DNA of 64,000 bases, from assembly GCF_016722785.1 (NCBI RefSeq), contig NZ_JAEQNE010000005.1:310001-374000 (forward strand). The letters run 5' to 3'. A model generated the notes under the pieces. That model made no database searches. It was not told the origin of the DNA and saw only the letters and a program-made list of their open reading frames with translations. Source of the stretch: Ramlibacter monticola. Lineage in GTDB: Bacteria; Pseudomonadota; Gammaproteobacteria; Burkholderiales; Burkholderiaceae_C. The number at the start of each line of letters is the position of its first letter. Positions within the stretch are counted from its first letter, which is position 1. Both the position numbers and the translations under genes were made by a program. This document shows positions 18,065-37,255 of the stretch, in pieces.

Positions 18065-18829
18065 TCAGAACAGGGCGCTCCAGTCGCCCTGGTCGGCCAG
18101 CAGCCCGCGCAGGCGCAGCAGCGCCCGCCGGTGCACCTGCGAGATGCGGCCGCGCGTGAGCTGCAGGCTGGCGGCGATCTGCTCGAAGGGAATTTCCTGC
18201 AGGTAGTGGTTGCGGATCACGGTCCTCTCCTGCACTGGCAGGCCTTCCACGGCCTGCAACAGCCGCGCGCGCAACTGCCGCAGCTCCGCGCTGCGGTAGA
18301 AGGGTTGCGATGGGGCTTCGGCACCGTCGTCGACCATGCCGCTGCCTTCCAGCAGCCAGCACAGGGCGAGCCCGATACCCGTCTCGGAAACGAAGGCCAG
18401 CAGTTGCTTCGCGTCCCGCGGGGGCAGCGCACCGGAACCACTGCGCTCGCCGGCGAGCGCCTTCAGGTCCTGCATGCGCTCGGCCCTCAGGCGCCGGCGC
18501 GCGGCGATCTGCTGCTGCTTCTCGGTGAAGCGCTCCAGGCCGTTGAGGATGGCGCCGTGCATGCGCCGCGCCGCGAAGGTGCGGAATTGCACGCCGCGCG
18601 CCGGATCGAATCGCTCCAAGGCTTCCAGCAGGCCGATGGAGGCGTACTGCAGGTAGTCGGCAAACTCGATCTCGTCGTGGTAGCGGCGCGAATAATACGA
18701 AGCCGCTACCACGCGCGCGTAGCCCTGATGAAAGGCCAGAAGGCGCTCGCGCGCCCGCGCGTCGCCCTCCACCCGGAGTTGCCGCCACAAGAGGGCTTCC
18801 TCGTCCACTGCCGCCGCGACCGCCTGCAT
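18065..18829 (-). CDS. fliA: RNA polymerase sigma factor for flagellar operons (FliA, sigma-28)
   Basis: A 254-residue sigma-28-type factor. Region 2 is DYLQYASIGLLEALERFDPARGVQFRTFAARRMHGAI and region 4 is QERTVIRNHYLQEIPFEQIAASLQL with the recognition helix TRGRISQVHRRAL. It would direct late flagellar genes, yet none lies nearby and no anti-sigma flgM is present. It is the last gene of the long flagellar unit, 7 bases after fliP. No TAAA/GCCGATAA-type promoter was recognised in the window. Confidence 0.88.
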   Translation of the reverse strand: MQAVAAAVDEEALLWRQLRVEGDARARERLLAFHQGYARVVAASYYSRRYHDEIEFADYLQYASIGLLEALERFDPARGVQFRTFAARRMHGAILNGLERFTEKQQQIAARRRLRAERMQDLKALAGERSGSGALPPRDAKQLLAFVSETGIGLALCWLLEGSGMVDDGAEAPSQPFYRSAELRQLRARLLQAVEGLPVQERTVIRNHYLQEIPFEQIAASLQLTRGRISQVHRRALLRLRGLLADQGDWSALF

Positions 18830-18836
18830 GGCCGCC

Positions 18837-19595
18837 TCAGTGGAAGGACCCGACGAGGGCCTTGAGGATCAGGGCCCACCCGTCCACCAGCACGAACATG
18901 AGCACCTTGAGCGGTAACGCGATCGTGGTGGGCGGCAGCATCATCATCCCGAGCGTCATCAGGACCGACGACACGACGAGATCGATCAGGAGGAAGGGAA
19001 GAAAAATCAGAAAGCCGATCTGAAACGCGGCCCGCAGCTCCGACAGCATGAAGGCGGGAATCAGCTGTACGTTCCCGACGTCCTCGATGCCTTGCGGGAC
19101 CCGGGCGCTGGAGAGCTCGATCATGAGGGCCAGGTCCTGTTCGCGGGTCTGCCGCACCATGAACTCGCGCAGGGGCGCCGTTCCTTTCGCATAGGCGGCT
19201 TCCATGCCGAGCGTGCCGTTCATGAAGGGCTGGAACGCCTGCTCGTCGAGGGACTGCAGCACCGGCGCCATCGTGAACAGCGTGAAGAACAGGGCGAGCC
19301 CGATCAGCACCGGGTTCGGCGGCGTCTCCGGCATGCCGATCGCTTGCCGAAGCATCGAAAGCACGATGATGATCCTCAGGAAGGAGGTGACGCAGACCAG
19401 CAGCGCGGGCAGCACTGCGAGCACGCTCAGGCCGAGGACGACGCGCAGGGCCTGCGCCGTGTCGTTCGGCGCCGCGGCCAGGGTGCGCTCGACGACCGGC
19501 GCCGCCTGGGCCGCTGCGCCAGCATCGCTGGCCGGTCCCAGCGCCAGCAGGACGGCCACGGCGAGCGCAGTACTGCCGCGAATCAGCGGATTCAT
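18837..19595 (-). CDS. fliP: Flagellar export gate protein FliP
   Basis: A 252-residue membrane protein with a cleavable signal (MNPLIRGSTALAVAVLLALGPASDAGA), then VTSFLRIIIVLSMLRQAIGMPETPPNPVLIGLALF and the C-terminal block IPAFMLSELRAAFQIGFLIFLPFLLIDLVVSSVLMTLGMMM-type segment that defines the family. FliP pentamers with FliQ and FliR form the export gate inside the MS ring. The ATG at 19595 overlaps the fliO stop by 4 bases. Confidence 0.94.
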   Translation of the reverse strand: MNPLIRGSTALAVAVLLALGPASDAGAAAQAAPVVERTLAAAPNDTAQALRVVLGLSVLAVLPALLVCVTSFLRIIIVLSMLRQAIGMPETPPNPVLIGLALFFTLFTMAPVLQSLDEQAFQPFMNGTLGMEAAYAKGTAPLREFMVRQTREQDLALMIELSSARVPQGIEDVGNVQLIPAFMLSELRAAFQIGFLIFLPFLLIDLVVSSVLMTLGMMMLPPTTIALPLKVLMFVLVDGWALILKALVGSFH

Positions 19596-20002
19596 GGGGA
19601 TCCTTCCTCGGGCGACGGGAGCGATCGACGTGCCAGCAGGGTCACCTGCTGCGTGGTGCACGCGAGAAGGAACTCCTCGCCGTTCCACTGCACCGCATGC
19701 ACGCTCGCGTGCGGCGTCAGCGCCTGGCTGGACAGCCGGGTCACGGCGGCATCGGTCCGCCTGGCACCGGAGTGCGGCTGCGCACCCGCGCCGCGGCGCC
19801 ACCAGGCATAGCCACCGGCAGCCAGCCCCAGCCCCAGCAGGAGCACCGTGGGGATCCAGAGTCCGCCGTCGGAAAGAGGTTCAGGATCGCGGCGCAGGGG
19901 CAGGCTGCCGGGGAGCGCGTCGGCCCACGCGAGCCCCGTCCCCACGATGGACGCACAGGCGAGCAGGCCCGCGACCATGCGATGCAGGAGGGCGCTTCGC
20001 AT
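19592..20002 (-). CDS. fliO: Flagellar biosynthesis protein FliO
   Basis: A 136-residue protein with a signal-like N-terminus, one membrane span (LWIPTVLLLGLGLAAGGYAWW, near 49-69) and a cytoplasmic tail with ...VTRLSSQALTPHASVHAVQWNGEEFLLACTTQQVTLL, the usual FliO C-domain pattern. FliO helps assemble the FliP ring. It sits between fliN and fliP, the classical position, with a 2-base gap after fliN. Confidence 0.85.
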   Translation of the reverse strand: MRSALLHRMVAGLLACASIVGTGLAWADALPGSLPLRRDPEPLSDGGLWIPTVLLLGLGLAAGGYAWWRRGAGAQPHSGARRTDAAVTRLSSQALTPHASVHAVQWNGEEFLLACTTQQVTLLARRSLPSPEEGSP

Positions 20003-20004
20003 GC

Positions 20005-20349
20005 TCAGAGCTTCAGCGGCAGCGGCAGCTCGGTGATGCGGACGGCGAAGCATCCGTCCACCGCGACCAGTTGCCCCCGGGCGACGACTTTGCCTTCCAG
20101 CAGGAGGTCCACCGGCTGGTCGAGGCCGCGCTGCAGCACGAGGACCTCGCTTTCGCGCGCGCCCAGCAATTCGCCGATGCTCATGTCGGCTTCCCCCACG
20201 CAAACCTGCAGCCTGACCTTCACCGCATGCAGGGGATTTCCTTCCCGCAGCAGCGCCGCGGCCGCGCCCGCTTCCGCGCCGGGCTCTTCCAGCGCGATCG
20301 CCTGCGCGTGCACGCCGGCCTGCAGGAAGGATTCGAACATCTGGCTCAT
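20005..20349 (-). CDS. fliN: Flagellar motor switch protein FliN
   Basis: A 114-residue C-ring protein. The SpoA domain fills the C-terminal 75 residues: VKVRLQVCVGEADMSIGELLG, VDLLLEGKVVARGQLVAVDG and FAVRITELPLPL. FliN tetramers form the base of the C ring and bind FliH. The ATG at 20349 overlaps the fliM stop by 4 bases. Confidence 0.9.
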   Translation of the reverse strand: MSQMFESFLQAGVHAQAIALEEPGAEAGAAAALLREGNPLHAVKVRLQVCVGEADMSIGELLGARESEVLVLQRGLDQPVDLLLEGKVVARGQLVAVDGCFAVRITELPLPLKL

Positions 20350-21170
20350 GACGCGACCTTTCCGGAAGACGGGGCGGCGCAGACGCCCGGGGTGGCCAGT
20401 TCCAGGGCCTTGCGCTGCCCCCGACGCGCGAGGTACCCGGCCAGCACAGCCTGCCCCTGCGCGTCGCAGACCCGCAGCGGGGTGTCCAGCCGATGCGGCA
20501 CCGGGACGATGTCGCCGATGCGCAGGTCCTGCAGGCTGGCGAGATCCAGTTCGCAATCGGCCAGCCGTGCCCGCAGCGGCAGCCGCGTGCCGCCGACGGC
20601 GGTCGTGAGCGGAGTGAGTGCCGGGAGCGCGGTCGCAGGCCGCATCTCGCCGGCCAGTTCCGGCGCGGCGCCGCGCAGCAAGTGGTCCATGGCCGGCGCA
20701 TCCAGCAACAGGAACACGCCGGTGCCCATTGCCGCCACGACCTGCCCGGACCAAGCGCATGACGAAGGCACCCGTTCCCCGCCCGCCTCGAGGCAGAGAG
20801 CCGCACGCAGGCGCGCTGCGAAATCGGCACGGCACGCGGTCAGAACGCCGAGCGCGATCGGTCCCGCGATGCCGTCGCAGCCCCACAGGAGTTGCGCCAG
20901 TTCCGTGTCGAAGGAAGCCGGCAGGGAGAGCCATGCCGCCCCGGCGGTGCCGCCTGCAACGCACTGCCATGGGCGTAGGAGATCCTGCGGCGTCGGATGG
21001 GTGCAAGTCACGCCTCCCGCTCTGGACGGCATTCCCCAGGCCTCTCTCCATGCCTGTGGCGCGGGGGCCAGCGCATACGCGGCGGCGGCGAGCTGCGCTG
21101 CACGCCAGGCGACCAGCGGCCGTGCGCCTTCGATGCGACGCCAGGTCGCAGGACTGCTGGCGGCACTCAC
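20346..21170 (-). CDS. fliM: Flagellar motor switch protein FliM, short divergent form
   Basis: A 274-residue protein in the fliM position with a C-terminal SpoA-like domain (RLPLRARLADCELDLASLQDLRIGDIVPVPHRL...QAVLAGYLARRGQRKALEL). FliM is usually 320-335 residues and opens with an EIDALL-type CheY-binding peptide; this protein starts SAASSPATWRRIEGARPLVA and has no such motif. The middle CheC-like domain is hard to recognise. The start is GTG 21170, overlapping the flgE stop (GTGA). Position and C-domain support the call; the remainder is divergent. Confidence 0.75.
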   Translation of the reverse strand: MSAASSPATWRRIEGARPLVAWRAAQLAAAAYALAPAPQAWREAWGMPSRAGGVTCTHPTPQDLLRPWQCVAGGTAGAAWLSLPASFDTELAQLLWGCDGIAGPIALGVLTACRADFAARLRAALCLEAGGERVPSSCAWSGQVVAAMGTGVFLLLDAPAMDHLLRGAAPELAGEMRPATALPALTPLTTAVGGTRLPLRARLADCELDLASLQDLRIGDIVPVPHRLDTPLRVCDAQGQAVLAGYLARRGQRKALELATPGVCAAPSSGKVAS

Positions 21171-22336
21171 TTGTTCTTCATCCCGAAGAGTTCCTGCAAC
21201 ATGTCGTTCGCGGTGGCGACGATCTGCGAGGACGCCTGGTAGCCGCGCTGCAGGATCACCAGATCGCTGAACTCGCGCGAAAGGTCCACGTTGGAGGTCT
21301 CGAGCGCGCCGGCCCGCACGCCCGCGAAGCCCGCCTCGCCGGCCACCCCAAGCTGCCAGGCCCCGGCGCCGGCCTCGGCGAACAGGCCGCCGCCCAGGTC
21401 GCGGAGGGCGCCGGACGCGTTGAAGCGCCCCAGCGCCAGTTGCGCTCCTTTCCGGGTCTGGCCGTTGGTGTACGTGGCGACGAGCCTGCCGCTCGCATCG
21501 AAGGCGAGCTTGGTCAGCGCGCCGGGCCCGAAGCCATCCTGCGAGCTCATCGCCAGTGTCGACAGGTTGCCGGAGGCGAAGGAGGTGACGTCCGCCGAGA
21601 AGTCGAGTTCGAGCGCTTGCGCGGTTCCTCCCGCGGGCGCGTAGGTGAAGGAAAGGCGGCTCGTTGCGGGCGTGGGTTGTCCGTCGTCGAACGCGATCTC
21701 CGAAGTGCCTACCAAAGCGGCCCCGTCCAGCAGTTCGAGCTTCCATCGTCCGGCGTTGTCCGGCGCAAGGCTGGTGAGGCGAACCTCGAGCTCGTGTTCC
21801 GCGCCGGCGGCGTCGAAGACCTTCACCGAGCCGACCGTCTGCTCCGCCACCGTGCTGGACAGGTTTCCCGTGAAGCGGACGGTCCTCGTGGCCTCGCCAG
21901 CGCTCGTGCGCAAGCCCGCGACGGAGATTTCGCCAAGTGCGCCGTCGGCCGCGCGCCCCATCACCTTGCTGGCGTCGACGCGGTTGACCAGCACGCCGTC
22001 GGTGCCCAACTGGAATTGCCCGGCCCGGGTGTACCGCGTCTGGCCCTGCGCGTCGCGCAGCACGAAGAGCCCCTCGCCCTCCAGTGCCAGGTCGAACTCG
22101 TTGCCGGTCTCGCGGAAATCGCCCTGACGCCAGTCCAGGTGCGCGGAAGTCGCGTCCACGCCTTGGCCGAGGGTCGCCTCGCCTGACGGAGAGCCGGTTC
22201 CGACCATTTCGGAGAACTGCAGCGTGGACGCCTTGAAGCCCGGCGTGTTCAGGTTGGTGGTGTTGTTCGCGATCACGCGCAGCCCCTGCTGGAAAGCCTG
22301 CAGGCCGGTCAGGCCGACGTGGATGGAATCGAGCAT
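21167..22336 (-). CDS. flgE: Flagellar hook protein FlgE
   Basis: A 389-residue hook protein. The rod/hook N-terminal motif is LTGLQAFQQGLRVIANNTTNLNTPGFKAS, the central domain has TNGQTRKGAQLALGRFN, and the C-terminal motif is LETSNVDLSREFSDLVILQRGYQASSQIV. It polymerises into the hook beyond the L ring. It follows flgD by 12 bases. This is the most distal structural part encoded in the cluster. Confidence 0.93.
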   Translation of the reverse strand: MLDSIHVGLTGLQAFQQGLRVIANNTTNLNTPGFKASTLQFSEMVGTGSPSGEATLGQGVDATSAHLDWRQGDFRETGNEFDLALEGEGLFVLRDAQGQTRYTRAGQFQLGTDGVLVNRVDASKVMGRAADGALGEISVAGLRTSAGEATRTVRFTGNLSSTVAEQTVGSVKVFDAAGAEHELEVRLTSLAPDNAGRWKLELLDGAALVGTSEIAFDDGQPTPATSRLSFTYAPAGGTAQALELDFSADVTSFASGNLSTLAMSSQDGFGPGALTKLAFDASGRLVATYTNGQTRKGAQLALGRFNASGALRDLGGGLFAEAGAGAWQLGVAGEAGFAGVRAGALETSNVDLSREFSDLVILQRGYQASSQIVATANDMLQELFGMKNK

Positions 22337-22348
22337 GAGCGGCTCCCT

Positions 22349-22750
22349 TCAGCGGACGGCGAGCAGTTGCGAAAGCGGGATGTCCGCCACGACGGCACCG
22401 CCGGCGAGCGACACGGTGAGCAGCGGCGCGTCTCCCTGCAGCGCCATGGCAGTCACCTTTCCGGTGCTGCGGCCCCCCTCGACAATCACGTCGACGCTGC
22501 GTCCGAGCAGCCCGATCGACTGCAGCGCGGCCTGGTTCTCGATCAGTTGCTGCATGCGGTCGTTGAGCTGCTGGGACTGTTCCAGCGCGCTGAACTGCGC
22601 CATCTGCGCCATGAAGGCCTGGTTGTCCATGGGCTTGAGCGGGTCCTGGAACGTGAGCTGCGTCAGCAGGACGTTCATGAACTCGCGCAGCCCCAGCGCG
22701 CTGGAGGCTGCCCCGGCGCCCGCGGGGGCCGCTACCGATCCGATGGCCAT
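22349..22750 (-). CDS. flgD: Flagellar hook assembly scaffold FlgD, short form
   Basis: A 133-residue FlgD. The conserved N-terminal motif FMNVLLTQLTFQDPLKPMDNQAFMAQMAQFSALEQ is clear (about residues 24-58). The C-terminal part is only about 60 residues, compared with about 230 in total for E. coli FlgD, so most of the Tudor/FnIII region is missing. It caps the growing hook. The ATG at 22750 lies inside the end of the previous gene (19-base overlap). Confidence 0.9.
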   Translation of the reverse strand: MAIGSVAAPAGAGAASSALGLREFMNVLLTQLTFQDPLKPMDNQAFMAQMAQFSALEQSQQLNDRMQQLIENQAALQSIGLLGRSVDVIVEGGRSTGKVTAMALQGDAPLLTVSLAGGAVVADIPLSQLLAVR

Positions 22751-23274
22751 GGTGCTTCCTTCAGGAGAGAGGAATCGAGGGAGGCGCGCGGGTACACCGG
22801 CACGCCGTTGCAGATCACGGAGACGACGCGCGCGCCGGCAGGCTGCTGCAGGCTGCGACACAGGTCCGCCACGGCAACGCCGGCGCGTTGGGCGACCAGC
22901 GCGGCGTCGCCATCGATGCCCAGCCAGACCTTGAGGCCTTCGGCTGCGTCGGCCTGGACGTGCACCCGCAGGGACGGCCTCTGCTCCACCGGCCCGGGGC
23001 CGGGCAGTGGCGGCGCGGATTCCCCGGCGGCAACATGCGAGACTGGCGGCGCCGCGACGCGCACCGGCGCGGCTTCGGCCGGAGCCAGCGGGATCCCGCA
23101 GGATTCGAGTTGTGTCTCCGCACTTTCGGGTGCGGCGCGTTCCGGTGCTTCGTTGTCGCTCCCGGCGCGCTGCAGCTGCGCGATCCAGCCGGGAAAGTCC
23201 TGCGCATGCGGCACCGTCGGCACCGTCGGCGGGAATGGAGCGGCGAGACGCAGGTCGACCAGCCCGAGATTCAT
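22732..23274 (-). CDS. FliK-position protein, putative hook-length control
   Basis: A 180-residue protein between fliJ and flgD, where fliK is usually found. The N-terminal half is Pro/Ala-rich and low in complexity; the C-terminal half (VQRPSLRVHVQADAAEGLKVWLGIDGDAALVAQRAG onward) has a weak resemblance to the FliK C-domain. True FliK proteins are about 375-450 residues. The ATG at 23274 overlaps the fliJ stop. The call rests on position and composition. Confidence 0.55.
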   Translation of the reverse strand: MNLGLVDLRLAAPFPPTVPTVPHAQDFPGWIAQLQRAGSDNEAPERAAPESAETQLESCGIPLAPAEAAPVRVAAPPVSHVAAGESAPPLPGPGPVEQRPSLRVHVQADAAEGLKVWLGIDGDAALVAQRAGVAVADLCRSLQQPAGARVVSVICNGVPVYPRASLDSSLLKEAPWPSDR

Positions 23275-23774
23275 GATGCGTCCGTCCTCTCGCGGGTCTC
23301 CGCGGCGCGGCGCCTTTGCATCAGCGCCAGCCAGGCCGCGTCCGCCTCGCTCCATTCGCGGCGCAGTTGTTGCTGCGCGTGCTGCCGCTGCGCGGCGTGC
23401 CGTAGCGCCTCCACGGATTCGAGCTGCCGCTGCCGCTCCGCGCAAGCCGCCCGGGCGGCGACGACGCGCTGCTCCAGTCCGACGCGGGACGCCTCGGCGG
23501 CGAGCCGGGCCTCTTCCAGGCTGGCCAGGTAGCGCACGGCCCGCGCTCTGGCGTGGAGGTCGTCGGGGGCGCTGCGCGCGGCCCGTCGCTCCTGCTCGCG
23601 CTGGTGCGCCGAGCGGCGCTGCGCCGCCTCGTCAAGTAAGTGCAGGTGACGCTGCAGCGCGCCGAGCTCCAGCCGCGCACTCTCCACCGCGCCATCCAGG
23701 TGTCGCTGCAGCGGTTCGAGGTGCCAGCGAAACGCCCGCAGGTCGACCCGGGGAACGGCTTTGAGATCGTTCAT
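23271..23774 (-). CDS. fliJ: Flagellar export chaperone-escort protein FliJ
   Basis: A 167-residue, strongly charged protein predicted to be almost entirely coiled coil, rich in Arg, Glu, Gln and Ala with no membrane span. Size, composition and position directly after fliI fit FliJ, the central stalk-like partner of the FliI ATPase. The ATG at 23774 overlaps the fliI stop by 4 bases. Confidence 0.82.
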   Translation of the reverse strand: MNDLKAVPRVDLRAFRWHLEPLQRHLDGAVESARLELGALQRHLHLLDEAAQRRSAHQREQERRAARSAPDDLHARARAVRYLASLEEARLAAEASRVGLEQRVVAARAACAERQRQLESVEALRHAAQRQHAQQQLRREWSEADAAWLALMQRRRAAETRERTDAS

Positions 23775-25099
23775 GCACCGCTCCGTCGTGCCAGCACCCG
23801 CGCAAGCTGCCCCAGGGCCTCCGCCCGGTCGACGCCGCCATGCTCCTGCCGCAGCCACGCAAAGAGCGAGGCTTCCAGGGCGAGGGCGGCATCGAGTGCG
23901 GGATGGCTGCCCTTGGTGTAGGCACCGAGTTCGACCAGCTGGCGGTTGCGCTCCAGCACGGAGAGGTGGCGCACGGCCTCGCGCACCAGCTGCCGGTCTT
24001 CCTGCGGAACCAGGTCGCGCAGCAGGCGGCTGGCGCTGCGAAGCAGGTCGATAGCCGGGAAATGCGCCTGCTGCGCCAGTTCACGCGAAAGCACGATGTG
24101 CCCGTCCAAGATCGAACGCATGCTGTCGGCGACCGGTTCGTTGAGGTCGTCGCCTTCCACCAGCACCGTCAGCAGCGCCGTGACCGAGCCGCCCGAGGCC
24201 AGGGTGCCGCAACGCTCGCAGATCTGCGGCAGCTCCGCGAACACCGAAGGCGTGTAGCCGCGCGCCGTCGCCGGTTCGCCGGCCGCCAGCCCGACCTCCC
24301 TGCGGGCCATGGCCAGCCGCGTGATCGAGTCCATCGTCAGCAGCACGGAGCGGTCCTGCTGCGCGAAATGACGCGCCACGGCCACCGCGGCATGTGCGGC
24401 ACGGATCCGTGCCAGGGCCGGCTGCTCGGAACTGGCGGCGATGACGACCGAGCGGCGCAGCCCCTCCTCGCCGAGCTGCTCCTCGACGAATTCGCGCACC
24501 TCGCGGCCACGCTCCCCGATCAGCGCCACCACATTGAGATCCGCGCGGGCATGGCGGACGATCATCCCGAGCAGGCTGCTCTTGCCGACGCCGCTGCCGG
24601 CGAAGATGCCCATGCGCTGGCCTTCTCCCAGGGTGAGGAAGACGTCGATGGCGCGCACGCCGGTCTCCAGCACCCGTGCGATCCGCGGCCGCTGCAGGGG
24701 GTTCGTCGGCGCTGCGTGAAGGCACGCCCACTCCGACAGCACCGGCGGCGCACGTCCGTCCAGCGGTTCACCGAAGCCGTCGATGACCCGGCCCAGCAGC
24801 TGCGGCCCCACCGCGATGCGCGACGCGTGCCCCAGGGCGACCACGCGTGCCCCGGCTCCGATGCCGCGCAAGACGCCGTACGGCAGCAACACCACGCGCC
24901 CCGGCTCGAGGCCGACGACTTCGGCGAGCACGGGTCGTGCGGACCCGGACTCGTGCGGCAGCACGCTGCACATCTCACCGAGCTCCGCGCGCGGCCCGTC
25001 CGCCTCGATCGCGAGCCCCTGCAGCCGCCGCACCCAGCCGATGCGCTGGGCGAGTTCGGCGGAGCGCAAGGCTTCGCGATAGCCGGCGATCACGCTCAC
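23771..25099 (-). CDS. fliI: Flagellum-specific ATPase FliI
   Basis: A 442-residue F1-type ATPase. The Walker A region is GIFAGSGVGKSSLLGMI, followed by NVVALIGERGREVREFVEEQLG, the Walker B region SVLLTMDSITRLAMARREVGLAAGEPATARGY-type segment and VFAELPQICERCG. It powers or regulates export of rod and hook subunits with FliH and FliJ. The start is GTG 25099 (SVIAGYREALRSAE), overlapping the fliH stop by 4 bases. Confidence 0.95.
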   Translation of the reverse strand: MSVIAGYREALRSAELAQRIGWVRRLQGLAIEADGPRAELGEMCSVLPHESGSARPVLAEVVGLEPGRVVLLPYGVLRGIGAGARVVALGHASRIAVGPQLLGRVIDGFGEPLDGRAPPVLSEWACLHAAPTNPLQRPRIARVLETGVRAIDVFLTLGEGQRMGIFAGSGVGKSSLLGMIVRHARADLNVVALIGERGREVREFVEEQLGEEGLRRSVVIAASSEQPALARIRAAHAAVAVARHFAQQDRSVLLTMDSITRLAMARREVGLAAGEPATARGYTPSVFAELPQICERCGTLASGGSVTALLTVLVEGDDLNEPVADSMRSILDGHIVLSRELAQQAHFPAIDLLRSASRLLRDLVPQEDRQLVREAVRHLSVLERNRQLVELGAYTKGSHPALDAALALEASLFAWLRQEHGGVDRAEALGQLARVLARRSGA

Positions 25100-25806
25100 G
25101 AGCCCTCCCCCGCGAGCGGCCCTTGCGATCGCCGGGCGCGCGCTTCCAGCAGGGTGGCCTTGCAGGCGGAGAGCATCGTTTCCAGCCGCGCATCGAGCGC
25201 GCCCCGGGAGGATTTCAGGATGCATCCGCCGAGTCCCACCTCGATGTCTGCGACCCACGTGAACGCGCCGGCGGGACCGCGTGCCAGCAGCTCCGCATCC
25301 TGCGGGTGCACGTGCAGAACGAGGTCCGTCCCGCCATGCAGCGCGGCCAGCCGCGCGAGCTGCGCACGGACGGCCCCCGGGCCCCCGGCGCTCGCGCCGA
25401 TCAGGCGGCAGAGCGTTTCGTAGCACAGCGCCACCATGTCGTCCTCGGCTGCGGCGAGCAGCGTAGCCATCGATTCCTGCGCGCCCTGTGCCATCTTCTG
25501 CAGGCGTTCGTGTTGGGCCTGCAAGGGAAGCACGGCTTCGTCCACGGCGCGCTGCACGGCCTGGCGGACCTCGTCCGCTGCCTGCGCACGGCCTTCCCGC
25601 AGCCCCTCCGCGCGACCTGCGCGCAGGCCCTCCTCGCGCGCTTCCTCCCGGGCGAGCGCGAGCGCCTCGCGCAGCGCCTGCTCGCGGGCTGCGTCTTCGG
25701 CTGCCGCCGGTGCAACCGCGGCTCGGGCGCGGCCCAGCCGCAGGGGCGTCGCCTCGACTGGGACGCCGCGCAACACCTCGCGGCCGATGGCGGGGAGGGC
25801 GCTCAT
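25096..25806 (-). CDS. fliH: Flagellar export ATPase regulator FliH
   Basis: A 236-residue protein with a long Ala/Glu/Arg helical central region containing glycine-spaced repeats (REEGLRAGRAEGLREGRAQA), a FliH hallmark, and a C-terminal domain with HVHPQDAELL and VGLGGCILKSSRGALDARLE. It links FliI to the C ring protein FliN. The ATG at 25806 overlaps the fliG stop. Confidence 0.9.
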   Translation of the reverse strand: MSALPAIGREVLRGVPVEATPLRLGRARAAVAPAAAEDAAREQALREALALAREEAREEGLRAGRAEGLREGRAQAADEVRQAVQRAVDEAVLPLQAQHERLQKMAQGAQESMATLLAAAEDDMVALCYETLCRLIGASAGGPGAVRAQLARLAALHGGTDLVLHVHPQDAELLARGPAGAFTWVADIEVGLGGCILKSSRGALDARLETMLSACKATLLEARARRSQGPLAGEGS

Positions 25807-26345
25807 CGCCCTCTCCCCAGCGCGAGCAGCCGGCGCCGCAGCAATTGCCAGCGCGAGACCGGCTTTGGCTCCGCTCGCTCGCCCGCGACCCGGAGCGCCG
25901 TCTCTGCGACGACGGCGGCTTGCAGCGCAACCGCGGGACTTGCGGACCGTGCCAGCGATTCCACCTCCTGCGCCATCGCCTGCGGCAATCCGGCGAGAAG
26001 TTGCCCGCCCCACGGCCAGGAGCCGGCGGCGAGCAGAGCAGCGGCGAGGCGGGGCGGCTCCGCAGCGAGCAGGTTCGCCAGCCTGCGCACGCCCGGATCG
26101 TCCAGTGCCTGCAATGCATCGGATGCGGGGATCGCTGCCTCGCTGCCTGTTCCGGCGAGTCCACGGAGCAGGTCCGCCTCCCTGGGAATTCCGAGCTCGT
26201 CGAGCTCACCCAACAGCGGCTTCAGCACGGACCGCTGCTGACTGCTCAAGGCCTCCAGGACCCATGCGCGGTCGTCGCCGGACAAGGCATGGAGCGTCAG
26301 GGCCGCGCGGTGGGCCGGCGAAGGACTTGGAAGCTGGAGTGTCAT
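25803..26345 (-). CDS. fliG: FliG-like motor switch protein lacking the torque domain
   Basis: A 180-residue protein in the fliG position between fliF and fliH. Residues 10-65 (RAALTLHALSGDDRAWVLEAL, LLGELDELGIP) look like a FliG N-domain. Residues 78-125 (LQALDDPGVRRLANLLAAEPPRLAAALLAAG, LLAGLPQAMAQEV) match the middle domain, with EPPR in place of the EHPQ motif. The protein then ends in a basic tail, WQLLRRRLLALGRGR. Normal FliG is about 330 residues; the C-terminal charged domain that meets MotA is absent, with no frameshifted remainder before fliH. Confidence 0.65.
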   Translation of the reverse strand: MTLQLPSPSPAHRAALTLHALSGDDRAWVLEALSSQQRSVLKPLLGELDELGIPREADLLRGLAGTGSEAAIPASDALQALDDPGVRRLANLLAAEPPRLAAALLAAGSWPWGGQLLAGLPQAMAQEVESLARSASPAVALQAAVVAETALRVAGERAEPKPVSRWQLLRRRLLALGRGR

Positions 26346-27793: not shown

Positions 27794-27817
27794 GCGGAAT
27801 CCCCCGGCATCGACTTG

Positions 27818-28545: not shown

Positions 28546-28547
28546 CG

Positions 28548-28937: not shown

Positions 28938-28943
28938 CGCTCC

Positions 28944-30062: not shown

Positions 30063-30064
30063 GG

Positions 30065-30643
30065 CTACAACCCCAGGGCGTCGAGCACCACGCGCCACCA
30101 GGCGCGCCGGCTCCGCTCCGTCAGGTCGCCCTCCCCGACGTAGGTGATGCGGGCCTGCGCGATGCGGGTGGAGTGCACGACGTTGCCCTCGCTGATGTCG
30201 GCCGGGCGCACCATGCCCTCCAGGGTGACCCGCTGCGCTTCCTCGTTCACGGTCACGGACTGCGTGCCGGCGATGCGCAGCTGGCCCCCGGGCAGCACTT
30301 CCTGCACGCTGACCGTCACCGTGGTGAGCAGCCGGCTGGTACGTTGCGTGCGGCCGCCGCCGTCGAACTCGCCCGCGGCAGCGAGGGCCGCCTGTCCTGC
30401 CTTGGTGCTCCCATGCGCCAGCTCCGCCTGCAGGCGGTTGCTGCGCCGGGTCCCGGTTTCGGCGCTGCTCGAGGCACTGGAGTTTTCGAAGACCTGCACC
30501 GTGAGCACGTCGCCGGGCCGGTAGGCCTTGTTGTCGGCGGTGAAACCGCGCCAGGCTTCTTCGCGGAACAGGCTCTGCGCATCCGCGCCGAGAGCGAGGA
30601 CGCAAACGCCGGTGACGAACGCCGCATGGCAGAAGCGGCTCAT
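30065..30643 (-). CDS. flgH: Flagellar L-ring protein FlgH, without lipobox
   Basis: A 192-residue L-ring protein. The motif NKAYRPGDVLTVQVFENSSASSSAETGTRR, then RLLTTVTVSVQEVLPGGQLRIAG and NVVHSTRIAQARITYVGEGDL, defines the family. FlgH is normally a lipoprotein of about 230 residues. Here the signal ends in GADAQSLFREE with no lipobox cysteine, and the mature protein starts directly at the SLF segment. It is probably a soluble, shortened L-ring subunit. It overlaps flgA by 4 bases. Confidence 0.92.
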   Translation of the reverse strand: MSRFCHAAFVTGVCVLALGADAQSLFREEAWRGFTADNKAYRPGDVLTVQVFENSSASSSAETGTRRSNRLQAELAHGSTKAGQAALAAAGEFDGGGRTQRTSRLLTTVTVSVQEVLPGGQLRIAGTQSVTVNEEAQRVTLEGMVRPADISEGNVVHSTRIAQARITYVGEGDLTERSRRAWWRVVLDALGL

Positions 30644-31485
30644 GGCGCCAACTCCAGTTGCCCGGGCCCTGTCACGCGCGCGAAGACGATGGCGCCTCCA
30701 CCCGGCGCCCGCACCCGCACTTGGTCGCCCACCCGGCCGTCCTGCAGCACGGCGACCTTGCTCTCCAGCGAGACGACGCCGTCACTGCTGCGCAGGGTCG
30801 CCCAGCCGCCGCGCTCCACCGACAGTGGCGAAGAGCGTGTCGGTCCGCGACGGGTGGCCACGGCGGAGACGCCGGAATCCATCGCGCCGGGAGAAACCGC
30901 CGCCTCCACCTCCACAGGCACCGGGACCGTCCCAAGAAAGGCGCCCTCGCTCCAGATGTCCACCCACACCAGCATGCGTTGGCGCAGGGCGGCGTCTTCC
31001 AGGGACCGCGCCCGCAACTGGACTTCGCCAGCCGGGATCGGGAGATCACGTGGCCAGCGCGCCGCGCGCACCTGGCCGGCGATGCCGCGCAGCGCCATGT
31101 AGTCACGCAGGGCCTGCGTCGCGACGACCGCGAGCTCGGCGCCCTTCAGCTGGCGCGTGGCGCGCGTGACACGGGCGGACTCGCTGCCGAGCCACACGAC
31201 ATCCGCCTCGAGGAGTCCCGTCGCGCGCCGCAACCACCCGGCCAGCAACTCCCGCCGCACGTACGCCGGCTGGCCGTCGCCGGGCACGCGCCCGATCGGC
31301 AGGTCGACCAGCTGGCGCATGAGTGCGAGTTCAGGGGAGTGCAGGCGCGCCACCTGGCCCAGCGAGACGGCGTCGCTACTCACTTCCGCCTCCGGCAGCA
31401 GCTCGATGCTGGCGCGTGGCGCAGCGAGCGCGCAACTGAAGCCCAGCGCGACGACGGCGGCGGCGAAGGAGGACCGGATCTTCAT
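30640..31485 (-). CDS. flgA: Flagellar P-ring assembly chaperone FlgA
   Basis: A 281-residue periplasmic protein with signal MKIRSSFAAAVVALGFSCALA, a variable N-domain and a C-terminal SAF-like domain (VERGGWATLRSSDGVVSLESKVAVLQDGRVGDQVRVR) typical of FlgA. It assists FlgI polymerisation. Its place between flgG and flgH is unusual: flgA is normally divergent from flgB. It overlaps flgG by 4 bases. Confidence 0.85.
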   Translation of the reverse strand: MKIRSSFAAAVVALGFSCALAAPRASIELLPEAEVSSDAVSLGQVARLHSPELALMRQLVDLPIGRVPGDGQPAYVRRELLAGWLRRATGLLEADVVWLGSESARVTRATRQLKGAELAVVATQALRDYMALRGIAGQVRAARWPRDLPIPAGEVQLRARSLEDAALRQRMLVWVDIWSEGAFLGTVPVPVEVEAAVSPGAMDSGVSAVATRRGPTRSSPLSVERGGWATLRSSDGVVSLESKVAVLQDGRVGDQVRVRAPGGGAIVFARVTGPGQLELAP

Positions 31486-32264
31486 CGCCGCAGCCCGTTG
31501 ATCATGCCGAGCATTTCGTCGGAGGCCTGCACCACCTTCACGCTCGCTTCATAGGCGCGCTGGGCGACCATGAGGTTCACCATCTCCTCGACCAACTTCA
31601 CGTTGGAGCTCTCGAGCGCGCCCTGCACGAGCGTGCCCATGCCGTCCTCGCCGGGACGGCCGCCGATCGGCTCTCCGGACGCTTCCGTGGCGCGGTAGAC
31701 GTTCGCGCCCTGCGCCAGCAGCCCTTGCGGCGAGGCGAAGCGTGCAAGTTCCAGCTGCCCCACGTCCACGGGGGTGGACTGCCCCGGCAGGCGAGCCTGC
31801 ACGCGACCGGTAGCGGAGATCGTGATGGCTTCGGCGTTCTCCGGAATGGCCACTCCCGGCTTCAACGGCACGCCCGCCTGGGTCACCAGCTGGCCCTCGG
31901 CGCTGAGCTTCAGCGAGCCGCCGCGCGCGTAGGCGCGGGTGCCGTCCGGCATCGCCAGTTCGAGGAAGCCATCCCCCACGATGGCGAGGTCTAGCGGCGC
32001 CTCGGTCCTTCTCAGTTCGCCTGGGTCGAACACCTTGGCCGCGGCTGCGAGCTGGACGCCCGCGCCCACGCCGGCCGTCGCGAACACACCCGCGCCCGCC
32101 ACATCGCGCCCGGGCTGCACGGCAGAGACCACCAGCTCGGAGAAACTGGTGCGGTTCTTCTTGAAACCGGCCGTGTTGACGTTCGCCAGATTGTTGGCGA
32201 TGGCTTCGACGTGCGCCTGTTGCGCCTGCATGCCGGTGGCACCGATGGCGAGCGCATCAAACAT
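31482..32264 (-). CDS. flgG: Flagellar distal rod protein FlgG
   Basis: A 260-residue distal rod protein, the typical length. Landmarks are LAIGATGMQAQQAHVEAIANNLANVNTAGFKKNRTSFSELV at the start and ESSNVKLVEEMVNLMVAQRAYEASVKVVQASDEMLGMINGL at the end. It follows flgF after a 33-base gap, one of the few visible spacers in the unit. Confidence 0.95.
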   Translation of the reverse strand: MFDALAIGATGMQAQQAHVEAIANNLANVNTAGFKKNRTSFSELVVSAVQPGRDVAGAGVFATAGVGAGVQLAAAAKVFDPGELRRTEAPLDLAIVGDGFLELAMPDGTRAYARGGSLKLSAEGQLVTQAGVPLKPGVAIPENAEAITISATGRVQARLPGQSTPVDVGQLELARFASPQGLLAQGANVYRATEASGEPIGGRPGEDGMGTLVQGALESSNVKLVEEMVNLMVAQRAYEASVKVVQASDEMLGMINGLRR

Positions 32265-32297
32265 GGACGACCTCCGCGTGGACCCAAGACTCCGGGC

Positions 32298-33053
32298 TCA
32301 TGACGGCTCCCCCAGGCGACGGATGCTGGTGCCCAGCATCTCGTCGTAGCCCATGGCCACCTTCTGCATGGTTTCGAGGTGGCGCACCGACTGCAGCAGC
32401 TGCACCATTTCATGCATCGGCGCGACGTTCGAGTTCTCCAGGAAGCCCTGTTCCACCCGCGTACTGCCCTCGGGCGCTGCGGCTGCCTCGCCGTGCAGCA
32501 GGAGCAGTCCGTCGCCGAGCCTCTCGACGCGCACGGAAGGCTCGAACTGCACGATGCGCAGTTGCCCGACCGGCTGCGCGCCCGGCCCGGCGTCGCCCTC
32601 GAAGACGCGTCCGCTAGCATCGATCACAGGCTTGCCCTGCACCAGCTGGATCTCGCCGCCGGCACCCATCACCGGATGGCCCTGGGGCGTCACGATGCGG
32701 CCGCGCGCGTCGAGCCGGAAATTGCCCTGGCGGGTGTAGGCCGCGCCGGATTCCGTCCGCACCTCGAACCAGCCCGGGCCCGCCAGCGCGAGGTCCAGCG
32801 CCTGCCCCGTGGACTTCAGCGTTCCCGGGCGGGCGTCCACGTGCAGCGCACGCAAGGATTCCGGTGCGACGCCGTCCCCAGCCAGGAGCCCTTGCTGCAC
32901 GCCGCGGTCCACGCGCGCGGCGAACGGCAGGGTCAGGCCGACCTCACGCTTGAAGCCGGGGGTCTGCACGTTGGCCAGGTTCATGGCCACGTGGTCCAGC
33001 CGCGCAAGATCGGCATGCATGCTGCCCAGGACCAGGGAGAGGATTTCGTTCAT
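32298..33053 (-). CDS. flgF: Flagellar proximal rod protein FlgF
   Basis: A 251-residue rod protein with LDHVAMNLANVQTPGFKREVGL, the GPGWFEVRTESGAAYTRQGNFRLDARGRIVTPQGHPVMG core and LENSNVAPMHEMVQLLQSVRHLETMQKV at the C-terminus. FlgF and FlgG are paralogues; the first of the pair is taken as FlgF from gene order and lower similarity to FlgG. The ATG at 33053 overlaps the flhA stop. Confidence 0.85.
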   Translation of the reverse strand: MNEILSLVLGSMHADLARLDHVAMNLANVQTPGFKREVGLTLPFAARVDRGVQQGLLAGDGVAPESLRALHVDARPGTLKSTGQALDLALAGPGWFEVRTESGAAYTRQGNFRLDARGRIVTPQGHPVMGAGGEIQLVQGKPVIDASGRVFEGDAGPGAQPVGQLRIVQFEPSVRVERLGDGLLLLHGEAAAAPEGSTRVEQGFLENSNVAPMHEMVQLLQSVRHLETMQKVAMGYDEMLGTSIRRLGEPS

Positions 33054-35113
33054 GCACTGCCTCCCTCGCGCACGGTCACGGTGCCCCACGACTTCAGCTC
33101 GATGGCGTGCGGAATCTCCGCCATCGAGAGCACGCGAAGGTGGGGCAGGCCGCGCTCGGACAGGGAGCGCAGGTAGCGCCGCAACTCCGGCGCGCACAGC
33201 AGCACCGGCAGCAGGTTGCTCTTCATCATTCGTTCGGCCTGCTGCACCAGCTGCAGCAGGAGTTTTTCGAGCAGCTTCGGCTCGATCAGCGGCGCACCGG
33301 AGGCCGCGCCCTCGCGCCGCGCCGCCTGCACGCCCTGCAGCAGGCGGCCTTCGATGACGGGGTCGAGCGTCAGCACGTGCAAGGCGCCGGCGCCGCCCGC
33401 CAGGCCCTGGCAGATGCTGTGCCCCAGGCGCTGGCGCACGCATTCGGTGAGTTGCGCGGCATCCTTGGTGCCGCGGCCGGCATCCGCCAGCGTCTCCAGG
33501 ATGGCCTCCAGGTTGCGGATGGAGACCTTCTCGCGCAACAGGTTCTGCAGGACCTTCTGCACGTCGCCAACGGACAGCACGGTCGGCACAAGCTCCTCCA
33601 CCAGCGAGGGCTGCGACTGCCGCACGCGGGCCAGCAGGCGGTCTGTTTCGGCACGCGTGAGCAGCGTGGCCGCCTCGCGCCGCAGCAACTCCGTGAGGTG
33701 GGTCATGAACACCGTGGGCCCGTCGACCAGCGTGTAGCGGGCGGCCGCGGCCTGGTCGCGACGCGACGGATCGATCCAGACGGCGGGCAGGCCGTAAGTG
33801 GGATCGCGGGTCGCCTCCCCGACGACGGCGCCCTGGTCACCGGCCGGATGGATCGCAAGCAACTGGCCGGGGCGCACCTCGCCGCGCCCGGCCAGCACGC
33901 CATCCACGGACACCTCGTAGGCATCGGGATGGAGCTGGGCGCCGGCACGGAAGCGGATCGGCGGGATCACCAGCCCCAGTTCCTGCGCATGCTGGCTGCG
34001 CAGGGCCGCGATGCGCTCCTGGAACAGCGCCCCGCTCTCCCCGACCTGCAGTGCCCAGCGGCTACCGACCCGCACTTCCACGGCCTCGACGGCCATCTGC
34101 GCGTAGGGGTCGATGCTCGTGGTTGGCACGGCACCGGGCTGCTCTTCCTGCGCCCCGCCTTGCGCCCGCCGGGCCCACCACGCCACCAGCACGGCCGCCC
34201 CGAACAGCGCGGACGCAGGCAGCAGCGGGATTCCCGGCAGGAACAGCAGCGCCGCGAGTGCGCAGGCCACCAGCACCAGCGTCTTGGGGAAGGCCGTCAC
34301 CTGGCGCAGCGCCTGCTGGCCCAGGTTGCCGTCGGAGGCCGAACGGGTCACGATGATCCCGGTGCCCACCGCGATCACCAGCGCCGGGACCTGCGTGACG
34401 ATGCCGTCCCCGATGGTCAGCAGCGTATAGACCTGAAGGGCCTGCGCCCAGGGCATCTTGTGCTGCAGCACGCCGATGACGAGGCCCCCGACGATGTTGA
34501 TCAGGAGCACCAGGATCCCGGCGATGGCATCGCCCTTGACGAATTTGCTCGCCCCGTCCATTGCGCCGTAAAAACCCGCTTCCTTTTCCAACTGGCGGCG
34601 GCGCCGCTGGGCCTCGGCCTGATTGATGAAGCCCATGTTCAGGTCGGCGTCGATGCTCATTTGCTGGCCCGGCATGCTGTCCAGCGTGAAGCGCGCCGCC
34701 ACCTCGGAGACCCGCTGGGCGCCGCTGGAGACCACCACGAACTGCACCACGACCAGGATGAAGAAAACGATCAGGCCCACGACGAAGTTGCCCGCCACCA
34801 CGTGCGAACCGATCGCCGCGATCACGCGGCCGGCGTCGCCTTCCGCCAGGATCAGGCGGGTGGCGGCCACGTTCAGGGACAGGCGGAACAGCGTCGCCAG
34901 CAGCAGCAGCGACGGGAAGGTAGAGAAATCCACCGGCCGCGCCATCGAGAAGGTGAGCAGCAGAAGCAGGAAGGCGAAGCTGAAGTTGGCAAGGATCAGG
35001 AAGTCCAGCAGGCCGCGCGGGATCGGCAGGAACAGCACCAGCAGCACACCCAGCAGCGCGAGCACCATAGCCACGTCGGTGTGGCGGGCGAGAAAGCGGC
35101 GGATCGCGCTCAT
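33050..35113 (-). CDS. flhA: Flagellar export gate protein FlhA
   Basis: A 687-residue export protein. About eight N-terminal membrane spans are followed by the FHIPEP-type loop RFTLDSMPGQQMSIDADLNMG and a large cytoplasmic domain with QVGESGALFQERIAALR, the KVLQNLLREKVSIRNLEAILETLAD helix pair and LRRYLRSLSERGLPHLRVLSMAEIP. It couples proton flow to export. The start at 35113 (MSAIRRFLARHTD) overlaps the flhB stop by 4 bases. Confidence 0.96.
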   Translation of the reverse strand: MSAIRRFLARHTDVAMVLALLGVLLVLFLPIPRGLLDFLILANFSFAFLLLLLTFSMARPVDFSTFPSLLLLATLFRLSLNVAATRLILAEGDAGRVIAAIGSHVVAGNFVVGLIVFFILVVVQFVVVSSGAQRVSEVAARFTLDSMPGQQMSIDADLNMGFINQAEAQRRRRQLEKEAGFYGAMDGASKFVKGDAIAGILVLLINIVGGLVIGVLQHKMPWAQALQVYTLLTIGDGIVTQVPALVIAVGTGIIVTRSASDGNLGQQALRQVTAFPKTLVLVACALAALLFLPGIPLLPASALFGAAVLVAWWARRAQGGAQEEQPGAVPTTSIDPYAQMAVEAVEVRVGSRWALQVGESGALFQERIAALRSQHAQELGLVIPPIRFRAGAQLHPDAYEVSVDGVLAGRGEVRPGQLLAIHPAGDQGAVVGEATRDPTYGLPAVWIDPSRRDQAAAARYTLVDGPTVFMTHLTELLRREAATLLTRAETDRLLARVRQSQPSLVEELVPTVLSVGDVQKVLQNLLREKVSIRNLEAILETLADAGRGTKDAAQLTECVRQRLGHSICQGLAGGAGALHVLTLDPVIEGRLLQGVQAARREGAASGAPLIEPKLLEKLLLQLVQQAERMMKSNLLPVLLCAPELRRYLRSLSERGLPHLRVLSMAEIPHAIELKSWGTVTVREGGSA

Positions 35114-36189
35114 CCGGCTTCCCTCCCGGCCTGCTGCCGCCGCATCGCCAGCACCCACACGATGATCCGCGCGACTTCGGCGTGGAAGTCGGCCGGGAGG
35201 TAGTCGTCCAGCGTCGCTTCGCGGAACAGGCGGCGGGCCAGCGGCGGGTTCTGGACGACGACGACCCGGTGGCGGGCGGCAATCTCACGCATCGCCGCGG
35301 CCAGTTGCCCGGCCCCTTTCGCAACCACGCGCGGCGCGGGCATCTCGCCGTGCGCGTAGCGCAGCGCCACGGCGTAGTGCGTCGGGTTCGTGAGCACCAC
35401 GTCGGCATCGCGGGTGTTCTTCAGCGCGCGGCTACGCCGCAGCATCTCGCGCCGCAGTTCGCGCAGCCGGGCACGGATGCGGGGATCGCCCTCGCGGTTG
35501 CGGAATTCCTCCTTCAGCTCGCGGCGGCTCATGCGCATGCGCCCCGCGAATTCCCGGCGCGTGAAGGCGAGGTCAGCCGCGGCGACCAGCGCCAGGGCCA
35601 GGGCCAGCTTCCAGCCCAGTCCCGCAGCATCGACCAGCAGCACACGCACGAATTCCGCCGGCGGCAGCGCGGCGAGGCCGGCGAACTCGGGCAACAGGCT
35701 GCGCAGCGCGAGCCAGGCAACGACCGTGAGCAGCACCAGCTTGACCACGGCCCGTGCCGCTTCGAACAGCGTGCGCAAGGAGAAGATGCGGCGCAAGCCC
35801 TGCCCGGGATGCAGGCGAGTGAAGTCGGGGCGCAGCGGCTCGAACGAGAGCACCATGCCCGACTGGGCGATGGAGGCGACGACGGCTGCCAGTCCCGCGG
35901 CCAGGAACAGGGGCCACAGCACGGAGGCTGCGCCGGCCGCGACCTCCGCCGCCAACGCCCAGGCCGACGTCGCATCCGTCGCCTGAGCGAGGCGAGTGAA
36001 AGGCAGCCGCGCGATGCGCAGCAGCGCCTGCCAGGCGCCCAGGCCCAGTGCCGCCAGCCAGCCCACGGCCGCGAGAAAGACGGCGCAGGCCACCACCTCG
36101 GCGCTGCGCGGCGTCCGCCCCTGCTCGCGCGCCTTCTGCAGCTTGAAGGGCGTCGCGGCTTCGCTGCGATCGAGGTCCTGCTCCGCCAT
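35110..36189 (-). CDS. flhB: Flagellar export switch protein FlhB
   Basis: A 359-residue protein with the N-terminal EAATPFKLQKAREQGRTPRSAEV, four membrane spans, a basic cytoplasmic linker (SRRELKEEFRNREGDPRIRARLRELRREM) and the self-cleaving NPTH at residues 268-271 in VVLTNPTHYAVALRY. Cleavage there switches export from rod/hook to filament substrates, so the specificity switch is conserved even though no filament gene is nearby. The ATG overlaps the fliR stop by one base. Confidence 0.96.
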   Translation of the reverse strand: MAEQDLDRSEAATPFKLQKAREQGRTPRSAEVVACAVFLAAVGWLAALGLGAWQALLRIARLPFTRLAQATDATSAWALAAEVAAGAASVLWPLFLAAGLAAVVASIAQSGMVLSFEPLRPDFTRLHPGQGLRRIFSLRTLFEAARAVVKLVLLTVVAWLALRSLLPEFAGLAALPPAEFVRVLLVDAAGLGWKLALALALVAAADLAFTRREFAGRMRMSRRELKEEFRNREGDPRIRARLRELRREMLRRSRALKNTRDADVVLTNPTHYAVALRYAHGEMPAPRVVAKGAGQLAAAMREIAARHRVVVVQNPPLARRLFREATLDDYLPADFHAEVARIIVWVLAMRRQQAGREAG

Positions 36190-36977
36190 CAGCGTGCTCC
36201 CGCCGCCAGCCAGGCCGTCCAGGTGCGGTAGATGCCTGCGTACAGGCGCCCCGCCGGGGCGCCGAACGCGCCGGCCCAGGCCCAGAGGGCCAGCAGGCCC
36301 GCCACGATCTTGACCGGCACCCCCAGCACCAGCATGTTCAGCTGCGGCAGGTTGCGCGCGATCACGCCGAGGGCGAAGTCCACCAGCAGCAGCCCGAGCA
36401 CGATCGGCGCGGCCAGCGCGAAGCCCAGGGTGAACAGGGCCGCGGCCTCACGGGCGATCGCCTCGGCCGCTCCCGCGAGCGACGGGGACTGCCCCACCGG
36501 GAAGCGCTCCACGCTGTAGGCAATGCCGCGCAGCAGCGCGTGATGGCCGTTGACGAGGAAGAAGAACACGGCCGCGAACAGCGCGAAGATCGACGACAGC
36601 ACCGGCATGCGGCTGCGCGTGAGGGGGTCGAAGACCTGGGCGATGCCGAAGCCCACCTGCACGTCCACCAGCCGCCCCGCCAGCCCGAAGCCGGCGAAGG
36701 CCATGAGCACCCCGAGGCCCAATGTGGCGCCCACGGTCACCTCGCGCAGCAGGGCCTGCAGCAGGGGGCCGGGCTCCTGCGGCACGGTGGCCGGGCTGCC
36801 GGCAAACGGCAGGGCGATCACGCAGGAGAAACCCAGGGTCACCAGCACCCGCACCAGCAGCGGCATGGACGCCGCGTACAGCAGCGGCGTCATCAACAGC
36901 AGCGCCGCGATGCGCGCCGACAGCAGCAGCATGGTCACGATCCAGTCGGGGCCCAGGAGCGACACGATGGCGTTCAT
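36189..36977 (-). CDS. fliR: Flagellar export gate protein FliR
   Basis: A 262-residue membrane protein with about six spans. The FliR pattern includes GFGIAQVFDPLTRSRMPVLSSIFALFA and LLVDFALGVIARNLPQLNMLVLGVPVKIVAGLLAL. It completes the FliPQR gate. It lies 11 bases after fliQ, with GGAGCGG in front of the ATG. Confidence 0.94.
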   Translation of the reverse strand: MNAIVSLLGPDWIVTMLLLSARIAALLLMTPLLYAASMPLLVRVLVTLGFSCVIALPFAGSPATVPQEPGPLLQALLREVTVGATLGLGVLMAFAGFGLAGRLVDVQVGFGIAQVFDPLTRSRMPVLSSIFALFAAVFFFLVNGHHALLRGIAYSVERFPVGQSPSLAGAAEAIAREAAALFTLGFALAAPIVLGLLLVDFALGVIARNLPQLNMLVLGVPVKIVAGLLALWAWAGAFGAPAGRLYAGIYRTWTAWLAAGAR

Positions 36978-36988
36978 GCGCCGCTCCT

Positions 36989-37255
36989 TCACGTCAGCGC
37001 GGGGATCTGCGTCCAGAGCAACAGCGCGAAGCCGCACAGCTTGCGCAGCATCCAGGGCCCGAAGGCGATCACGGCGACGGCCGCGGCGAACAGCTTCGGC
37101 ACGAAACTCAGGGACATTTCCTGAATCTGGGTGACGACCTGCGCGATGCTCACGAGAAGGCCCACCAGCAGCGTGATGCCCAGCACCGGAAGGCACACCA
37201 CCAGCCCGGTCCAGAACAGGTCCGCCGTCATCCGCATAGCGAGATCACCGTGCAT
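36989..37255 (-). CDS. fliQ: Flagellar export gate protein FliQ
   Basis: An 88-residue, two-span protein, as in E. coli (89 aa). VGLLVSIAQVVTQIQEMSLSFVPKLFAAAVAVIAFGPWMLRKL is the family core. The start at 37255 was chosen for length; Met7 and Met9 of the same frame are alternatives. It is the first gene of the long flagellar unit, so the promoter should lie between 37256 and 37397. Confidence 0.93.
   Translation of the reverse strand: MHGDLAMRMTADLFWTGLVVCLPVLGITLLVGLLVSIAQVVTQIQEMSLSFVPKLFAAAVAVIAFGPWMLRKLCGFALLLWTQIPALT

Follow-up and report, generated by a model that had tools for sequence, protein, structure and literature searches.

Lysobacter enzymogenes is a non-flagellated bacterium whose flagellar type III secretion system (FT3SS) exports foreign flagellin, and the authors, in the passages considered here, propose an unknown native cargo (PMC7277350, PMC9927559). 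Myxococcus xanthus possesses T3SS*, described in the excerpt used here as a needle-less predation system with several LcrH chaperone homologues (PMC10433427). These systems are compared below with a 25-gene flagellar operon of Ramlibacter monticola, contained in a stretch of 64,000 nucleotides (contig NZ_JAEQNE010000005.1, positions 310,001 to 374,000; hereafter the window). L. enzymogenes likewise retains a flagellar export apparatus, there without flagellin, flgKL, fliD or motAB; according to the same passages, however, the L. enzymogenes genes are dispersed rather than arranged in one operon, are reported without flgB, fliE, fliG and fliM, and are linked to twitching. T3SS* is likewise a reduced type III apparatus, used to kill other bacteria, but it is described as made of Sct-type components, with no outer-membrane part or needle and with unknown effectors. 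No description of a system such as that of R. monticola was found in open-licence PMC papers. From its sequence and that of its relatives, this operon probably encodes a flagellar type III apparatus lacking both filament and motor, the FliA regulon of which would export giant polymorphic toxins instead of flagellin. On balance, and with less assurance, we also lean towards seeing in it a new class of antibacterial delivery machine in Burkholderiales, in which a rod-ring-hook body without filament or motor would be combined with a late sigma switch and with giant RHS nuclease toxins exported in flagellin's place.

Open reading frames and profile matches place 25 flagellar genes in an uninterrupted series on the minus strand of the window, from 37255 to 18065, in the order fliQ-fliR-flhB-flhA-flgF-flgG-flgA-flgH-flgI-flgB-flgC-fliE-fliF-fliG(short)-fliH-fliI-fliJ-fliK-flgD-flgE-fliM-fliN-fliO-fliP-fliA (Table 1). 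Pfam families match 22 of the 25 at E<=0.01. An earlier description made from the letters alone (the sequence-only reading) had reported this one-stranded run, flanked by frdABCD on one side and by receiver and OYE genes on the other; the reading frames bear out the run, and domain matches the flanks. Most junctions (22/24) lie between -19 and +47 nt, the wider ones being fliN-fliO (164 nt) and fliO-fliP (119 nt), where the starts were trimmed by us, and the sequence makes a single transcript plausible for the whole unit. Third-codon GC is mostly lower in the operon than in the neighbouring genes. Abby and Rocha sort such systems by flagellum-specific genes, and by our reading the criteria, as set out in the part of that paper used here, would file the Ramlibacter unit as a flagellum (PMC3459982).

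The genome (G000; G, C and L numbers are our labels for genomes, contigs and loci) has 6.14 Mb in 19 contigs, with a completeness of 100 and a contamination of 0.97, and the window lies on contig C15. The hook-basal-body and export genes of a swimming flagellum are present; its flagellin gene, MotA stator and FliG torque domain were not found, there being no match in the whole genome to Flagellin_N (controls were positive in four flagellated genomes), MotA_N or FliG_C. Flg_bbr_C, the FlgK-type domain, has four matches, all inside the operon and none elsewhere in the genome, and there is a single FHIPEP (FlhA) protein; fliD, fliS, flgJ, flgM, flgN and fliL stood outside these genome-wide searches. 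Flagellin, MotA and FliG_C match in the same 12 of 60 genus genomes, and two of the 20 operon-bearing genus genomes (G025, G046) are among those 12.

The fliG gene of the operon is short, its product scoring 20.4 bits against FliG_M (cut-off 25). An AlphaFold2 model of this short FliG has a mean pLDDT of 86.6, and its best 18 structure matches are all FliG; when fold is the sole criterion, the predicted ARM-like module matches the middle and the C-terminal domain equally well. A short fliG (158–256 aa) was found in 54/54 other loci measured, these being the loci, out of 80, with both fliF and fliG detected. Alignment A2 left out 3 of 55 loci (window included), and alignment A3 left out 4 of 13 FliM candidates judged off-frame.

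In a FastTree phylogeny of FlhA (128 rows, 127 of them different, some long branches flagged), the 86 rows of this type group together as a single clade (support 100), to which none of the 30 primary, 4 lateral and 8 injectisome rows belongs. The closest named FlhA is that of Ramlibacter alkalitolerans (87% identity). FlhA scores are bimodal in a 399-genome sample of the order, with 15 genomes at 712 bits or more and the others at 565 or less. At E<=1e-200 a search of the phylum returned four genomes, including this one, all within the order, and none outside it among 398 phylum genomes, weaker homologues being possible. The R. monticola FlhA scores 755 bits with the NCBIfam FlhA model (just below its cut-off of 772.1), versus 555 with SctV, and an injectisome was rejected on the separation from the eight injectisome rows and on the presence of flgB, flgC and fliE. 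Injectisome-type FlhA homologues do occur in the genomes surveyed, at L123-L124 (G012), L137-L138 (G050), L141-L142 (G077), L151-L152 (G039) and L154-L155 (G119); in G012 and G050 they are co-resident with a filament-less operon.

The detected genes stand in the same order in nine other genus genomes (G007, G011, G012, G024, G025, G027, G029, G046, G050), in which the operons were read end to end, fliK being detected in two, fliJ in eight (not G024) and fliO in eight (not G012). Relative to R. alkalitolerans, dN/dS ranges from 0.06 to 0.64 across all 25 genes, the highest value being that of the fliK position (0.64), and by this sequence comparison all 25 are under purifying selection. An operon remnant exists at L204 (G021:C1:840000-856000, ~9595-13248), with fliQ, fliR, a 235-aa flhA fragment and fliA; the giant, TPRa and TPRb genes described below remain elsewhere in that genome. 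The sequence-only reading had proposed an FlhA tree against primary and lateral systems and a check of conservation in relatives, which gave the separate clade and the shared gene order reported here. Its two suggestions fared differently: retention of a basal-body and hook structure for secretion or some other non-swimming role gains strong support from the failure to find flagellin, stator or FliG_C genome-wide, and further by the short fliG and the gene order conserved in relatives, whereas a compact secondary flagellum finds no support in a genome without any other FlhA. The giant RHS partner, the TPR genes and the shared promoter were not foreseen.

Among the recurrent neighbours of the operon is a giant RHS/YD-repeat protein, encoded near it in nine loci of several families; in RHS searches of the genus, frames of 4,000–5,500 aa were found mostly in operon genomes. 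The R. monticola giant (G000:C14:289257-302600, 4,447 aa) lies on a different contig from the window, has 34 RHS stretches in its first 2914 aa and gave no PAAR match. Pairwise identity between giants is 35–73% over most of their length, apart from one alignment window each of 47–48, and is below that near the ends, with 12–34% in the last filled window at the C-terminus (six pairs, G000/G025 showing the mildest drop). Toxin domains score over cut-off in three of nine giant C-terminal parts, AHH (in R. monticola), GH-E (G027) and Tox-HNH-HHH (G029), and below it in two, Tox-URI2 (G007) and T5orf172 (G025); LysM is present in 9/9. The next gene is co-directional, at -4 to +7 nt, after seven of ten giants, and immunity-type families score over cut-off in three of the seven genes directly downstream (Imm39, Imm26, SUFU), with Imm11 (in R. 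monticola) and DUF6392 below cut-off and none in the remaining two. RHS toxins include type VI secretion system (T6SS) examples. The giants share with RHS polymorphic toxins, as these are described in the passages used here, the RHS repeats, a variable C-terminal toxin domain and an adjacent immunity gene, and those passages of Zhang et al., which list toxin trafficking routes, do not include flagellar delivery of RHS giants (PMC3482391). The giants differ in size (~4,000–5,500 aa, versus frames of ~1,500–1,800 aa in many relatives), in the lack of a PAAR match in the R. monticola protein and in being tied to a flagellar apparatus. Still longer giant-type frames, of 7,719 aa (G335:C1:1093263) and 7,112 aa (G365:C337:92718), were also seen.

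A profile built from 11 giant N-termini of the genus (nine from operon genomes, two not) was used to relate giant and operon; G042 (54 bits) was scored as having no giant. In the order sample, with R. monticola left out, 11 genomes have both, three this FlhA only, three the giant only and 381 neither (Fisher p 1.5e-16), so that the giant occurs in 11/14 genomes with this FlhA versus 3/384 without; the 11 belong to eight families other than that of the window. Within the genus, again without R. monticola, the counts are 16 both, three operon only, three giant only and 37 neither (p 7e-9). The genus test is partly circular because its profile was drawn from giants of the genus; the order test avoids this, the genome under study having been left out. 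Giant and FlhA lie on one contig within ~25 kb in six of the 11 order genomes (G142, G164, G263, G341, G473, G475), and giants are present in three of the 12 flagellin-bearing genus genomes.

Other recurrent neighbours are TPRa (~380 aa), TPRb (~190 aa) and a small family (~130 aa); in R. monticola TPRb is at C12:1037407-1037964 and the small gene at C12:1037967-1038347. At L250 (G142), TPRb, the small gene and TPRa stand between fliA and fliQ, and in eight further loci they lie, in that order, just upstream of fliQ. A partner family was seen in 38 of the 95 locus entries with this FlhA (36 of 90 distinct, five loci having been read twice under two names), mostly with one flank covered. Against LcrH/SycD and SctY chaperone models the TPR proteins score only below cut-off, and other TPR models score higher.

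The textbook sigma-28 consensus is TAAAGTTT-N11-GCCGATAA. Upstream of 11 giants the motif STAAAC-N16-SGAYSTAYTG was found, exact in eight, with one mismatch in two and with two in one (G047); its TAAA and CGAT boxes (TAAA-N17-CGAT) have the spacing of that consensus, as FliA regulons have before late genes. In 2.75 Mb of loci, exact matches number 14 versus 0 for the reversed control, and those with one mismatch 8 versus 1. A scan of 24 genus genomes, allowing up to one mismatch and with the same kind of control, gave 32 matches (16 exact, in nine genomes) versus 7 in the 11 with an operon or remnant, and 5 (none exact) versus 8 in the 13 without an operon. The sites not belonging to giants matter most, because the motif was derived from giants: it precedes TPRb in G007, G011, G024, G025, G027, G029, G046 and R. 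monticola, and the small gene in G011 and G021. Exactly two sites, with up to one mismatch allowed, occur in the R. monticola genome, on different contigs, one 52 nt before the giant start and the other 15 nt before the TPRb start. At L218 (G024:C9:1804662) an exact motif precedes an open frame, 478 aa or longer, without a match to any partner family; this is possibly another member of the regulon.

These parts fit the logic of flagellar late genes, with flagellin replaced by a toxin. The operon would build an export gate, ATPase, MS ring, reduced C ring, rod, P and L rings and hook, that is, a type III export machine rather than a propeller. The FliA-like sigma factor, by reading the shared motif, would activate a distinct late regulon, and there a giant RHS/YD-repeat toxin, with TPR and small helpers, would take the place of flagellin. 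The TPR proteins are probably export chaperones of the giant, which may leave unfolded through the rod-hook tube; its variable C-terminal nuclease would then poison neighbouring bacteria, the producer being protected by the adjacent immunity gene.

Several observations weigh against this reading. At 4,000–5,500 aa, the giants would be very large as type III substrates. The two components are separated in some genomes: in the order, G112, G161 and G423 have this FlhA and no giant, and G335, G384 and G353 (weak, 42 bits) the reverse; in the genus, G001, G022 and G058 (fragmented) have the operon and no giant, and G003, G053 and G021 (operon remnant) a giant and no intact operon. Both co-occurrence tests ignore phylogeny. 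Partner families were not seen in 57/95 locus entries, though most of these cover one flank only, and TPRa was not seen in the stretches of the R. monticola genome that were read. Stricter sigma-28 patterns gave no match upstream of the giants, the -10 box differing from the textbook one; matches with two mismatches were not commoner than the control in the 2.75 Mb of loci (9 versus 25), and the region upstream of fliQ in the window showed no such motif. Two exact sites (G046:C5:132954, G024:C9:1804662) have no assigned partner gene, and of 11 giants tried from distant genera, six had a recognisable start and three of these six keep the spacing.

Such separations, the lack of linkage between giant and operon in R. 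monticola and several other genomes, and the giant's size would also suit a giant that is co-regulated without being cargo, in which case the operon would build a surface structure ending in a hook, or a channel through which other substrates pass, and the giant would take another way out. This is unlikely, if worth keeping in view: no other secretion genes recur beside the giants among the flanks listed, the helper genes lie inside the flagellar operon in one lineage, and the N-terminal stretch conserved among the giants shows, on inspection by eye, no evident Sec signal. A takeover of flagellar parts to control or drive a different machine, for instance a type IV pilus, has its precedent in L. 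enzymogenes, where, according to the passages used here, the FT3SS-like genes influence twitching and are able to export foreign flagellin (PMC7277350); it is improbable here, where conservation extends to a whole unit of 25 genes, those for rod, rings and hook included, and to a regulon belonging to it, whereas the Lysobacter genes are reported not to form an operon.

A decaying remnant of a conventional flagellum might be suspected from the missing filament, stator and FliG_C and from the clear operon remnant in G021. It was rejected on selection and conservation, and is very improbable, given that 25/25 frames are open with the low dN/dS values above, that the short fliG extends throughout the clade (54/54 other loci) and across genera, and that G025 and G046 retain the operon alongside a flagellin- and MotA-bearing set. 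Despite the hook-basal-body genes, an ordinary or lateral swimming flagellum with its filament and stator genes located elsewhere is hardly credible: this outcome, which the sequence-only reading had kept in mind, was pursued by seeking flagellin and MotA genome-wide, and neither was found, nor was FliG_C; a compact swimming flagellum was rejected on the same three results. The FlhA is also separate from those of fliC-carrying lateral systems. Lateral or secondary flagella are second flagellar gene sets in related bacteria; those read here (G066, G082, G114, G142b) carry fliC and a fliG of 340–353 aa and separate in the FlhA tree.

If toxin export by the operon is real, it would represent a flagellum turned toxin exporter with rod, rings and hook kept, and thereby a present-day example of the intermediates postulated between flagellum and injectisome. 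For the cargo question raised by Lysobacter it would supply a definite cargo, helper genes and promoter; it may account for the retention, by non-motile Burkholderiales, of genes annotated as flagellum, and it allows the delivery of very large RHS toxins along a flagellar route to be put to the test.

Table 1. Operon genes and neighbouring genes in the window (positions counted from its first nucleotide).
Feature	Position	Strand	Basis or remark
fliQ, export gate	36989..37255	-	PF01313 3.3e-24
fliR, export gate, start approximate	36189..36941	-	PF01311 6.5e-52
flhB, export switch, NPTH motif present	35110..36189	-	PF01312 3e-102
flhA, export gate, clade marker	33050..35113	-	PF00771 1.1e-235; tree
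flgF and flgG, rod	31482..33050	-	PF22692, PF06429, PF00460
flgA, flgH, flgI, P- and L-ring genes	28944..31485	-	PF13144, PF02107, PF02119
flgB, flgC, fliE, proximal rod	27818..28937	-	PF00460, PF06429, PF02049
fliF, MS ring	26342..27793	-	PF01514 1.8e-58
short fliG, 179 aa, N domain and one ARM-like module	25806..26345	-	FliG_M below cut-off; AlphaFold2 model
fliH and fliI, ATPase complex, P-loop AGSGVGKS	23771..25806	-	PF02108, PF00006 5.4e-82
fliJ and fliK positions	22732..23774	-	named by order only; no convincing family match
flgD (hook cap, start approximate) and flgE (hook)	21167..22729	-	PF03963 4e-19; PF06429; TIGR03506 6.2e-72
fliM (274 aa, C-terminal domain alone recognised) and fliN	20005..21170	-	PF01052
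fliO and fliP, export gate, starts approximate	18837..19840	-	PF04347 6e-5; PF00813 1.4e-73
fliA-like sigma factor, regions 2 and 4	18065..18829	-	PF04542, PF04545
FrdA, FrdB, FrdC, FrdD	within 14546-18032		neighbours beyond fliA
receiver protein, stand-alone	37398-37808	-	directly upstream of fliQ, same strand
NADH:flavin oxidoreductase (OYE type)	inside 37359-39032	+	

The fliA-like factor scores 88.7 bits with the FliA_WhiG model, below its cut-off of 189.6. The flanking metabolic genes were rejected as partners, showing no recurrence beyond close relatives among the recurrent-neighbour clusters listed. In those clusters a receiver gene lies close to fliQ in the window and in G025 only; it adjoins fliQ in G025 too, and is a possible regulator.

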